Of a DNA stretch of 64,000 nt, positions 3,001 through 22,036 are shown piece after piece. The position numbers were made by a program, and so were the translations under genes. Origin of the DNA: Phreatobacter sp. (lineage in GTDB: Bacteria > Pseudomonadota > Alphaproteobacteria > Rhizobiales > Phreatobacteraceae); NCBI RefSeq assembly GCF_030691135.1, contig NZ_JAUYFA010000085.1, positions 62,001 to 126,000 of the forward strand. The letters run 5' to 3'. Each line of letters starts with the position of its first letter. Position 1 is the first letter of the stretch. The notes beneath the pieces were generated by a model. That model had not been told where the DNA came from, did not search any database, and saw only the letters and a program-made list of their open reading frames with translations.

Positions 3001-3048
3001 GGAAAAAGACTCCGGTCGGGTCTTGGCCGCCGCGGCGGCCGCAGGTAC

Positions 3049-3076
3049 AAAAAAGGCCAGGCGTGAGCCCGGCCTT
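3049..3076 (-). terminator. Rho-independent terminator of cspA
   Basis: Minus strand AAGGCCGGGCTCACGCCTGGCCTTTTTT: GC stem followed by a T tract, downstream of the cspA stop. Confidence 0.85.
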
Positions 3077-3142
3077 CCCTATCAATTCGCCTTGTCGTCG
3101 GTCCCAGTACATCCGTGGCAACCGGACTGAGGCGAAGTGCAA

Positions 3143-3352
3143 TCAAGCAGCCTGAAGCTGTTCGGCCGCCATCTTGCCCGACTTGTTGTCGCGCATGACT
3201 TCGTAACCGAGCTTCTGGCCCTCGACGATTTCGCGCATTCCGGCGCGCTCGACGGCAGAGATGTGGACGAAAACGTCGGCGCCGCCGTCATCCGGCTGAA
3301 TGAAGCCGAAACCCTTGGTGGCGTTGAACCATTTCACTGTGCCGGTGGTCAT
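3143..3352 (-). CDS. cspA: Cold-shock protein, CspA family
   Basis: 69 aa [38 protein letters not shown] (RNP1/RNP2 motifs). Confidence 0.95.
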
Positions 3353-17260: not shown

Positions 17261-17331
17261 GTTGCGAATGTCTCGCAACTGGCTTGACATCGGCGACCGC
17301 TGTCCTCATCTTATTGCAAATGAGTTGCAAC
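17261..17331 (+). promoter_or_regulatory. Tandem 19-bp operator-like dyads flanking a sigma70-like promoter of the metal ABC operon
   Basis: GTTGCGAATGTCTCGCAAC (17261-17279), TTGACA (17284-17289), ATTGCAAATGAGTTGCAAC (17313-17331). Confidence 0.65.
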
Positions 17332-17373: not shown

Positions 17374-18342
17374 ATGATCGTCGACGTGAGCCGCCGTACC
17401 CTTCTAGTCCTCGCCGCCACGACGGCCGCCGCCACGCCCTGGCCGGCCCTCGCCCAGGGCGCTCGGAAGCCGTCCGTCGTCACCACCACCGCGATGCTGG
17501 CCGATGCCGTGCGGATGCTGGCGGGCGAACAGGTCACCGTCGAGGCGCTGATGGGCGAGGGGGTCGATCCGCACCTGTACCGGCCGACCCGTGCCGACAT
17601 CGTCAAGCTGACCCAGGCCGACCTCGTCATCGCCCATGGCCTCGGTCTCGAAGCCCAGTTCCGCGAGACCTTCCTGCAGTTGGCCCGCCGTCGTGCGCCC
17701 CTTCTCGCCGCTGAGGCGATTGCTCGCGACAGACTGCTCAAGGATGAAGAGGTCGCCGACAAGCCCGATCCCCATGTCTGGATGGATCCTTCTCTCTGGG
17801 CCGTCGTCGTGCGCACCGTCGCCGACGGCCTTGCCGGGCTGGACCTGACGGGCCGCACCAAGGTGACGCCGGATCTCGCACCGGCACTCGCCCGGATCGA
17901 GGCGCTCGGTGCCTATGCCGGCCAGGTGCTTGGCTCGATCGCGCCGGAGCGCCGCGTCCTCGTTACCGCCCATGACGCCTTCGGCTATCTGGCCCGCGCC
18001 TATGGCTTCGAGGTTCACGGCATCCAGGGCCTGTCGACCGAGAGCGAGGCGGGGCTCCGGGCTATCGAGGGGACCGTCGATCTCGTGGTCACCCGCGCCA
18101 TCCCCGCCATCTTCGTCGAGAGCTCGGTCTCCGACCGCAACATCCGCGCCGTCATTGAGGGCGCCGCCCGCCGCGACCGCCGCGTCGTCGTCGGCGGCGA
18201 GCTCTTCTCCGACGCCATGGGCAAGCCGGGCACCTATGAAGGCACCTATGTCGGCATGATCGACCATAATGTCACGACCATCGCCAGGGCGCTCGGCGGG
18301 GCGGCTCCCGAAAAGGGCATGTCCGGCCGGCTGACGGGCTGA
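17374..18342 (+). CDS. Metal (Mn/Zn) ABC transporter substrate-binding protein
   Basis: VVTTTAMLADAVRMLAGEQVTVEALMGEGVDPHLYRPT; HVWMDPSLW; SRRTLL signal. Confidence 0.94.
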   Translation: MIVDVSRRTLLVLAATTAAATPWPALAQGARKPSVVTTTAMLADAVRMLAGEQVTVEALMGEGVDPHLYRPTRADIVKLTQADLVIAHGLGLEAQFRETFLQLARRRAPLLAAEAIARDRLLKDEEVADKPDPHVWMDPSLWAVVVRTVADGLAGLDLTGRTKVTPDLAPALARIEALGAYAGQVLGSIAPERRVLVTAHDAFGYLARAYGFEVHGIQGLSTESEAGLRAIEGTVDLVVTRAIPAIFVESSVSDRNIRAVIEGAARRDRRVVVGGELFSDAMGKPGTYEGTYVGMIDHNVTTIARALGGAAPEKGMSGRLTG

Positions 18343-18347
18343 GGGGC

Positions 18348-19106
18348 GTGGACAGGCTCGCCATCACGCCACCCGAGGCCCTTGCCCCTGCCATAGGCCA
18401 CCTGGCCGTCGTGGGGCTCTCGGTCGCCTATCGCGGCGTGCCCGTTCTCTCTGACGTCACCTGGAGCGCGCCTGCCTCCGGGCTCACCGCCATCGTCGGG
18501 CCGAACGGGGCGGGCAAGTCCACCCTGATCAAGGCGATCCTCGGGCTGGTGCCCTCTACCGGCCGTGTCACCATCGGTGGCCGGAGCGTCGACGCGATGC
18601 GCGACGCCACCGCCTATGTTCCGCAGCGGGCGACCGTGGACTGGGACTTTCCGGCAACCGCCCTCGACGTCGTCCTGCAGGGCATGGTGCGCGAGCCCGG
18701 CTGGTTCCGCGGCTATGGCCGGGCCCGCCGGGAACGGGCTCTTGCCCTCCTCGACCGCGTCGGCCTCGCCGATCTCGCCTCCCGCCAGATCGGGCAGATG
18801 TCCGGCGGCCAGCAGCAGCGCGTCTTCCTCGCCCGCGGCCTCGCCCGCAACGCCGCCATCCTCTTCCTCGACGAGCCGCTGGCCGGCGTCGATGCCGCAT
18901 CCGAACGCATCATCCTCGACGTCTTCGATACCCTCGACCGCGATGGGCGGTTGGTCGTCTGTGTCCACCACGATCTCGGAACGGTCTCCGAGCGCTTCGC
19001 CGACGTGCTGGTGCTGAACAAGACGGTCATCGCCGCAGGACCGGTGGCGTTGGCCTTCACCCCGCAGAACCTCGCGCGCGCCTATGGCGTGCCGCTGACG
19101 GTCTGA
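18348..19106 (+). CDS. Metal ABC transporter ATP-binding protein
   Basis: VGPNGAGKSTLIKAILGL; AYVPQRATVDWDFPATALDVVLQGM; MSGGQQQRVFLARGLA. Confidence 0.95.
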   Translation: MDRLAITPPEALAPAIGHLAVVGLSVAYRGVPVLSDVTWSAPASGLTAIVGPNGAGKSTLIKAILGLVPSTGRVTIGGRSVDAMRDATAYVPQRATVDWDFPATALDVVLQGMVREPGWFRGYGRARRERALALLDRVGLADLASRQIGQMSGGQQQRVFLARGLARNAAILFLDEPLAGVDAASERIILDVFDTLDRDGRLVVCVHHDLGTVSERFADVLVLNKTVIAAGPVALAFTPQNLARAYGVPLTV

Positions 19107-19109
19107 GGC

Positions 19110-20006
19110 ATGGACGCGATCACCGCCCAGCTCCTCGCCGTCGTCACCTTCCAGGCCGGTTTCAACACGACCGTGGTCATGCTCGGCGCCGCCGCGCTCG
19201 GCTGCGCCGCCGGGGCGGCGGGAACCTTCGCCATGCTGCGGCGCCGGGCCCTCGTTTCCGACGCCGTGGCCCACGGCACACTGCCCGGCATCGCCGCGGC
19301 TTTCCTTCTCGCCGCCCTGCTCGGTCGGGCACCGCGCGAGGCCGGCTGGCTTATGGGCGGCGCGGGTATTGCCGCGCTCATCTCGCTCCTCGCCATCGAA
19401 TGGCTCGGCCGGCGGCCCCGGGTCGGCCCCGATACCGCCACCGCTGCGGTTCTCGCCGCGGGCTTCGGCCTCGGCCTGGCGCTCATGTCGGTGGTCCAGA
19501 CGCTGGCCGTCGGCCGCCAGGCTGGGCTGGAGTCTCTCCTGTTCGGCTCGGCGGCGGGCATGCTCCCCGGCGAGGCGCAGATGATGGCCGTCCTCGCCGT
19601 CTTCGTGCTCGTCGTCATCGCGCTGCTGCTCAAGGAGTTCTCGGCCGTCGCCTTCGATCCGGACTTCGCCGCGACGGTCGGCCTGCCGGTGGCGCGTCTC
19701 GACGCGCTGGTCGCGCTGGTCTGTGCCGTCGTCGTGGTGGCCGCTCTGCCGATCGCCGGCTTCGTCCTCGCCGTCGCCCTCGTCGTCATCCCGCCCGCCG
19801 CCGCCCGCTTCTGGTCCGACCGCGCCGGCACCGTCGTCGCTGTCGCCGCCGCCATCGGCGCCGTCTCCGCCTTTGCCGGCGCGGCGCTCTCGGCTGTCCT
19901 GAAGGACACGCCGACCGGCCCGGCCATCGTGCTGGTGGCGGCCCTCCTGTTCACGCTCAGCCTGGTCTTCGGGCGCGCTCGCGGTCTCCTGAGGGGCACC
20001 GGGTGA
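19110..20006 (+). CDS. Metal ABC transporter permease (ABC-3 family)
   Basis: SDAVAHGTLPGIAAAFLLAALLG; FDPDFAATVGLPVARLD. Confidence 0.93.
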   Translation: MDAITAQLLAVVTFQAGFNTTVVMLGAAALGCAAGAAGTFAMLRRRALVSDAVAHGTLPGIAAAFLLAALLGRAPREAGWLMGGAGIAALISLLAIEWLGRRPRVGPDTATAAVLAAGFGLGLALMSVVQTLAVGRQAGLESLLFGSAAGMLPGEAQMMAVLAVFVLVVIALLLKEFSAVAFDPDFAATVGLPVARLDALVALVCAVVVVAALPIAGFVLAVALVVIPPAAARFWSDRAGTVVAVAAAIGAVSAFAGAALSAVLKDTPTGPAIVLVAALLFTLSLVFGRARGLLRGTG

Positions 20007-20902
20007 TGGCCGAGTTCTGGATCGTCGATTTCGTCCCGCTGCTCGCCGCGAGCCTTTCGGCGCTCGCCTGCGCCCTCGTCGGCAATCTTCTCATCCTGAC
20101 CCGGCGCGCCATGGCCGCCGATGCCCTGAGCCACGCCGTCGTCCCCGGCGTGGTGGTGGCCGTCGCCATCACAGGACTGTCGGGGAGCATCGTCGTGCTC
20201 GCCGGCGGGCTGGCCGCCGCCTTCGCCGCCTCCGGCCTCGTCGCCTTCCTCATCCGCGCCGGCCGGGTGGAGCCCGGCACGGCGCTCGGCGTCGTTTTCA
20301 CCACCTTCTTTGCCTTCGGCATCCTGGTGCTCGAATGGACGGGTCTCTCGCGTACCGGCTTCGACATCCACCACGTGGTGACCGGCTATCTGGAGGGCCT
20401 CATCTGGGTGAGCCGCGATCCCGGCGGCACGGCCGGGTTTTTCCAATCGCTCATGGACCTGCCGCAGGTCGTCTTCGAACTCGCCCTGGTCCTCGTCCTC
20501 GTCGCCGCCATCCTTGCCGCCTTCCGAAAGGAATTCGCGCTCCTCGCCTTCGATCCTGTGTTCGCGCGGGCGAGCGGCCTGCCGGTCGGCCTGCTGGAGG
20601 CCGCCCTCCTCACCGCGACGGCACTCGCCTGCACCGCCGCCTTCAAGTCGGTCGGCGTCGTTCTGGCCGTCGCCATGATCGTCTGCCCGGCCGCGACCGC
20701 CCGTCTTCTGACGACGCGGCTGTCGCACCAGATGGCGCTTTCGGCCGCCATCGCGCTCGCCACCGTCTTCGCCGGCTATGCCGCCGCTGTCTTCGGGCCG
20801 CGTCTGTTCGGCTCCGCGCTGGCGCTGAACGCGGCCGGAACCATCGGCGCCATGGCCGGTCTGGCGCTCGCCGCGACCGCCGCATTGCGGGCACGCGGCT
20901 GA
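20006..20902 (+). CDS. Metal ABC transporter permease (ABC-3 family), second subunit
   Basis: ADALSHAVVPGVVVAVAITG; FDPVFARASGLPVGLLEAALL; TGATG overlap with the preceding gene. Confidence 0.92.
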   Translation: MAEFWIVDFVPLLAASLSALACALVGNLLILTRRAMAADALSHAVVPGVVVAVAITGLSGSIVVLAGGLAAAFAASGLVAFLIRAGRVEPGTALGVVFTTFFAFGILVLEWTGLSRTGFDIHHVVTGYLEGLIWVSRDPGGTAGFFQSLMDLPQVVFELALVLVLVAAILAAFRKEFALLAFDPVFARASGLPVGLLEAALLTATALACTAAFKSVGVVLAVAMIVCPAATARLLTTRLSHQMALSAAIALATVFAGYAAAVFGPRLFGSALALNAAGTIGAMAGLALAATAALRARG

Positions 20903-21004: not shown

Positions 21005-22036
21005 ATGCGCGAGATGAAACTTCCTGCCGACCACGTGCCCGTGAAGACCGGCAAGATCGGCGTGTTGCTGATGAACCTCGGCACTCCCGACGGCACCGAC
21101 TATTGGTCCATGCGCCGCTACCTGAAGGAGTTCCTCTCCGACAGGCGCGTAATCGAGACGTCGCGCGCCATCTGGTGGCCGATCCTCAACCTGATCATCC
21201 TGCAGACCCGGCCGCAGAAGAAGGGCAAGGACTACGCGACGATCTGGAACACCGAGAAGGACGAGAGCTTCCTCAAGACGATCACCCGCAACCAGGCGGA
21301 GAAGCTCGCCGCCCATCTGCAGGGCGTCAGCCCTGACATCCATGTCGAATGGGCCATGCGTTACGGCAATCCCGCCATCAAGCCGGCCATCGAGCGGCTG
21401 ATGGCGCAGGGCTGCGACCGCATCCTCGCTTTCTCGCTCTACCCGCAATATGCGGCCGCCACGACGGCCACCGCCAACGACCATGTGTTCCGCGCCCTGA
21501 TGGCGATGCGCTGGCAGCCGACCCTGCGCATCGCGCCGCCCTATCACGACGAGCCCGCCTATATCGCCGCCCTCGCCCAGTCGGTGCGCGACCATCTCGC
21601 CACGCTGGATTTCGAGCCGGAGGTCATCCTCACCTCGTTCCACGGCATGCCGAAGAGCTATCTCCTGCGCGGCGACCCCTACCACTGCCATTGTGCCAAG
21701 ACCTGGCGTCTGCTGCGCGAGGAACTCGGCTACACGACCGACCAGATGATGATGAGTTTCCAGTCGCGCTTCGGGCCTGACGAATGGCTGAAGCCCTACA
21801 CCGACGAAACTGTCGAGGCGCTCGGCAAGAAGGGCGTCAAGAGGCTCGCCATCATCGCCCCGGCCTTCTCCTCCGACTGCCTGGAGACGCTGGAGGAACT
21901 CGCTGGCGAGAACCGCCACATCTTCGAGGAGCACGGCGGCGAGAAGTTCACCTACATTCCCTGCCTCAACGATTCGGATCCGGGCATGAAGGTGATCACC
22001 ACCGTGGTCGAGCGGGAACTGCAGGGCTGGATCTGA
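21005..22036 (+). CDS. hemH: Ferrochelatase
   Basis: GVLLMNLGTPDGTDYWSMRRYLKEFLSD; ILTSFHGMPKSYLLRGDPYHCHCAKT; PAFSSDCLETLEE. Confidence 0.96.
   Translation: MREMKLPADHVPVKTGKIGVLLMNLGTPDGTDYWSMRRYLKEFLSDRRVIETSRAIWWPILNLIILQTRPQKKGKDYATIWNTEKDESFLKTITRNQAEKLAAHLQGVSPDIHVEWAMRYGNPAIKPAIERLMAQGCDRILAFSLYPQYAAATTATANDHVFRALMAMRWQPTLRIAPPYHDEPAYIAALAQSVRDHLATLDFEPEVILTSFHGMPKSYLLRGDPYHCHCAKTWRLLREELGYTTDQMMMSFQSRFGPDEWLKPYTDETVEALGKKGVKRLAIIAPAFSSDCLETLEELAGENRHIFEEHGGEKFTYIPCLNDSDPGMKVITTVVERELQGWI

Follow-up and report, generated by a model that had tools for sequence, protein, structure and literature searches.

In work of Diaz-Mireles in 2005, the sitABCD operon of R. leguminosarum reportedly carries two Mur sites, MRS1 and MRS2. 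In this organism, both sitABCD and mntH are under manganese (Mn)-responsive repression by Mur (PMC5575495). In R. sphaeroides, the Mur box of sitA is located between the -35 and -10 elements (PMC6956336), and at the arsR gene of Helicobacter pylori, Fur occupies several operators round one promoter and represses through DNA compaction (PMC5007355). A comparable arrangement is predicted in the genome of a Phreatobacter species, within a stretch of 64,000 nucleotides that was analysed as a whole (the window). Here, two dyads in the promoter region of an importer of the TroABCD type are predicted to be, and very probably are, a pair of operators for the Fur-family protein Mur. Like the Mur operators of sitABCD and mntH in R. 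leguminosarum, they place a Fur-family box before Mn-importer genes, although the importer is TroA-type, with a His-His-His-Asp pattern, unlike that of sitABCD (PMC5575495). R. sphaeroides sitA is likewise a Mn-importer gene with a Mur box in its promoter (PMC6956336). As at H. pylori arsR, several Fur-family operators are predicted at a single promoter; however, both motif and spacing differ from those at arsR, where compaction is the reported means of repression (PMC5007355). The predicted regulation is of a known kind, with a layout conserved in relatives.

Paired dyads at the promoter of a TroA-type importer

The sequence-only reading of this DNA had described two 19-bp dyads with a shared consensus, centred 52 bp apart, with TTGACA between them and a -10 element abutting the second. 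The sequence bears out each of these points: the dyads and the TTGACA occupy the positions given in Table 1, the centres fall at 17270 and 17322, and CATCTT ends at 17312, with the second dyad beginning at 17313.

Table 1. Predicted promoter elements, operators and genes of the importer locus (window coordinates).
Feature	Position	Strand	Description
-35 hexamer TTGACA	17284..17289	+	Invariant in the genus; begins 22 nt after the start (17262) of the box 1 17-mer core
Predicted -10 CATCTT	17307..17312	+	CANNNT pattern after a 17-bp spacer; weak consensus match
Box 1, upstream operator (predicted)	17261..17279	.	GTTGCGAATGTCTCGCAAC; centred on 17270, near -49 relative to the predicted start; PWM score 20.0
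Box 2, downstream operator (predicted)	17313..17331	.	ATTGCAAATGAGTTGCAAC; over the predicted start at about 17319; PWM score 24.8
TroA-type metal-binding periplasmic protein	17374..18342	+	PF01297; best solved match TroA 1TOA/1K0F; without a His-rich loop
ABC transporter ATPase, TroB/MntA-like	18348..19106	+	Profile matches
ABC-3 family permease 1	19110..20006	+	PF00950
ABC-3 family permease 2	20006..20902	+	PF00950; ATG overlapping the permease 1 stop codon

The 7+7 inverted repeat of dyad 1 is perfect, and dyad 2 matches at six of seven pairs, the mismatch being at the outermost pair. When RTTGCRAATGNNTYGCAAY is searched with up to two mismatches, 0.04 matches per shuffled window are expected by chance. 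The genome scan suggested in the sequence-only reading confines exact matches to the shared pattern to the two dyads: TTGCRANNNNNTYGCAA occurs exactly twice in the 4.2-Mb genome, both times at the dyads (reversed control, 0), which are also the sole exact matches to TTGCRA-N5-TYGCAA. Compared with the alphaproteobacterial Fur/Mur box TGCRAAT-N-ATTYGCA, a 7-1-7 inverted repeat, box 2 has one mismatch and box 1 has two; with up to three mismatches allowed, this motif is found 10 times per strand genome-wide versus 2 for the control. The Irr box (ICE) is a TTTAGAA-type repeat, which neither dyad resembles when judged by eye.

A stricter consensus promoter scan did not report the -10 CATCTT. In the aligned orthologues, a 17-bp spacer is followed by an element of this type, with A as its second base and T as its sixth. 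Because the -10 pattern and the spacer are readable in these alignments, transcription is predicted to start at about 17319, within box 2. The promoter has no Rfam family match that would indicate a riboswitch.

Pfam and NCBIfam assign the operon to a ZnuA/TroA family protein, an ABC ATPase, and two ABC-3 permeases, with none of the Mn- or Zn-specific NCBIfam models reaching its cut-off. The solved structure closest to the binding protein is Treponema TroA, and the His, His, His, and Asp residues aligned with its ligands (His68, His133, His199, and Asp279) are retained. TroA binds both Mn and Zn. That TroA-type binding proteins can take Zn counts against the Mn reading, and the metal transported here may be Mn or Zn. 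The ferrochelatase gene hemH lies directly 3′ of the operon (21005-22036, + strand), as it does in 7/7 relatives in which the region is covered. Elsewhere in the window, 16 kb from the importer, an RNA element of the terC family (Rfam RF03067, 50.9 bits; 1140-1191, - strand) lies upstream of an ORF predicted to encode a TerC-type membrane protein (102-1115, - strand); proteins of the TerC/Alx group have been connected with the export of Mn. A match to the alphaproteobacterial sRNA ar35 (3046-3179, - strand) scores 45.2, barely above the gathering score of 45.

Regulators encoded by the genome

Three Fur-family genes are encoded, namely one Fur/Mur protein (C111), Irr, and a Zur-like protein. 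The best solved matches of the Fur/Mur protein are 5FD5/5FD6 (200 bits), which carry the PDB label ferric uptake regulation protein and correspond to R. leguminosarum Mur, and 4RAY (193 bits), Magnetospirillum Fur. The Zur-like protein scores 115.6 bits against the Zur model, below the cut-off of 167, and is named Zur because of its best match and its own sites. No DtxR/MntR protein (PF02742) and no NRAMP protein was found in the genome. The preference for Mur-type boxes in the sequence-only reading thus gains support from the fit to the Fur/Mur motif, the presence of a Mur/Fur protein, the lack of MntR, and the genes adjoining boxes in the genus, considered next.

A candidate Mn regulon in the genus

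An orthologue of the importer is present in 10 of 11 relatives of the same genus, with G006 as the sole relative without a troA orthologue. Alignment of the upstream regions with the window indicates that both boxes are kept in eight of these ten orthologues, with TTGACA also standing out, while two (L125 and L126) have lost box 1 and kept box 2; box 2 is therefore retained in all ten. Across the 11 relatives, the box search gave 67 forward and 56 reverse matches, whereas the reversed control gave 4 and 5. A box precedes mntH in four genomes of the genus (G003, G006, G007, and G008), and G006 has two boxes at mntH, 56 bp apart. Other genes adjoining boxes encode an MntE-like exporter, Irr, an OprB-type porin, and an outer-membrane barrel.

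In G008, a Mur-type box precedes the gene for the MntE-like cation exporter (L197, at about 2015), which scores 450.5 bits against a cut-off of 500. An importer-type box at an exporter is unexpected under simple repression. A further Mur-type box in G008 stands immediately before irr (L195, at about 2009) and would tie Mn sensing to the iron regulator.

In the genome of the window, the only other strong box has one mismatch to TTGCRAATNATTYGCAA and is located at 1988 (L202, C33), 125 bp before a gene starting at 2113. This gene encodes an outer-membrane barrel without a Pfam family, and both box and gene are kept in three relatives. The protein is modelled with moderate confidence (pLDDT 67) as a barrel of 12 strands resembling various outer-membrane channels. 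MnoP of Bradyrhizobium is a known outer-membrane Mn channel (PMC9334652). Occurrence of the motif at other metal-homeostasis genes, which the sequence-only reading had set as a test, holds for the genus (mntH, the MntE-like exporter, and irr), whereas in the window's own genome the one further strong box precedes the gene for the outer-membrane barrel, which counts against the Mur reading. The additional boxes in the genus, before mntH, the outer-membrane barrel, the MntE-like exporter, and irr, make a Mn regulon likely as a prediction from motifs.

Layout of the two boxes and proposed mechanism

Homologous operons across the alphaproteobacteria mostly have two boxes: of the 109 promoters compared, one box or more was found in 85 and two or more in 71 (3.0 and 0.0 for a Markov control), an enrichment that is somewhat inflated since the PWM was built partly from promoters that were later scanned. 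The spacing between boxes falls at 27-32, mostly in Rhodobacterales, or at 50-53, the range of Chelatococcus, the genus of the window, and other Hyphomicrobiales; a few pairs have other spacings. Of the 65 box-TTGAC pairs within range, 63 have the start of the box 1 17-mer core 22 nt before TTGAC, and the other two have it 19 nt before. The 22-nt value is common to 15 protein clusters (72% identity cut-off) and recurs at mntH of G003, G006, and G008. Promoters without TTGAC break the pattern, as in Chelatococcus, where a TTGC element occurs about 17 nt on. Box 2 starts either 6-10 or 30-34 nt after TTGAC, and lies over the spacer and -10 in Rhodobacterales and over the start site in the genus of the window. 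The position of the R. sphaeroides sitA box, over the -35/-10 spacer, corresponds to that of box 2 in the Rhodobacterales promoters examined, whereas box 2 of the window genus is about two turns further downstream (PMC6956336). Box 1 alone is kept in L044, L073, L079, L130, and L146. In L045 and L062, the pair is displaced relative to TTGAC (by +8 and +38), giving a third layout.

Among 24 good boxes in a scan of 385 alphaproteobacterial genomes, a gap of 6 is commonest (six boxes), followed by a gap of 0 (five boxes), with many other gaps also present. The 22-nt layout is thus the commonest but not universal, and box-N5-TTGAC was rejected as a general rule. Another layout common in the class has good boxes fused straight to TTGAC (GCATTGAC), as in G254, G313, G466, G497, and G525. 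With one spacing taken per protein cluster, helical phasing between the boxes has a mean resultant of 0.75 at 10.5 bp; since a null that shifts the two spacing groups as blocks gives p = 0.61, this phasing is not claimed as evidence for the looping or cooperative repression that the sequence-only reading had suggested from a spacing of about five turns, although either may occur.

It is proposed that, as long as Mn(II) is abundant, dimers of Mur loaded with Mn would bind both boxes. Mur on box 2 would cover the edge of the -10 and the start site, while Mur on box 1 would cover the DNA just upstream of the -35, probably touching the -35 itself; RNA polymerase would therefore be excluded. Once Mn falls, Mur would leave and the importer would be made. 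In this genus the main operator is probably box 2, since two species keep it alone, and box 1 may add strength or sharpness, with or without cooperativity between the boxes. Alternatively, Mur bound to box 1 may contact RNA polymerase in a set geometry, perhaps trapping it or activating when metal-free, rather than plainly blocking it. This is suggested because box-N5-TTGAC (22 nt) is retained at nearly all tro-type promoters of alphaproteobacteria in which TTGAC is recognisable, and recurs at the unrelated gene mntH in three members of the genus, while box 2 moves by about two helical turns. Such contact is considered unlikely.

Iron, zinc, and other regulators

A different possibility is that the Fur/Mur protein does occupy the boxes but senses chiefly iron, as Fur rather than Mur, so that a Fe/Mn importer would be under iron control. 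It is nearly as close to Magnetospirillum Fur as to Mur, and these near-equal scores make an Fe(II) co-repressor compatible with the sequence; in addition, the irr gene of one relative (G008) has a box. Fur/Mur of R. sphaeroides also affects both iron and manganese genes (PMC6956336). However, the examined boxes of the genus precede mntH and the MntE-like exporter, and the box-flanking genes examined, which cover part of the sites, include none recognised as a siderophore-receptor or feo gene. Control mainly by iron is accordingly judged unlikely.

Zinc control through Zur would suit the TroA/AztC-like ligand pattern of the binding protein, which is compatible with zinc, and Zur is encoded in the genome. 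The Zur core of proteobacteria has been published as GTTA-N5-TAAC (PMC4176598). Sites of the Zur type (TGTTATANTATAACA) are located before znuABC and before a COG0523 GTPase gene, with none at the importer promoter, which sets zinc control apart from this promoter. The znuABC operon is located in another part of the genome, and its ZnuA, a paralogue of the TroA-like protein, carries a His-rich loop typical of zinc proteins. As the GTTA-N5-TAAC / TGTTATANTATAACA core is absent from the dyads, their identity as Zur boxes was rejected. The sequence-only reading had ranked Zur behind Mur, an order upheld by the location of Zur's own boxes elsewhere, and zinc control of the importer is very unlikely.

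The identity of the dyads as operators of MntR (DtxR family) was also rejected, given the lack of a PF02742 protein. Use of the dyads by an unrelated regulator, whether MntR or an unknown one, is hardly credible: Mur binding is a prediction, and the homologues of Halomonas, Verrucomicrobia, and Azospirillum have no box, so that the transporter is regulated otherwise elsewhere, but no DtxR-family protein was found in the genome and both motif and regulon fit Mur.

Significance

A literature search on Mur operators found little. The reading of the dyads as Mur operators assigns a regulator to an importer for which database models do not decide between Mn and Zn, and probably assigns the metal as well. 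The natural variants, with two boxes at two spacings, box 1 only, or box 2 only, offer a direct test of what paired Fur-family operators are for. The picture of Mur repression would change if the constant box 1 to -35 distance stems from contact with RNA polymerase.
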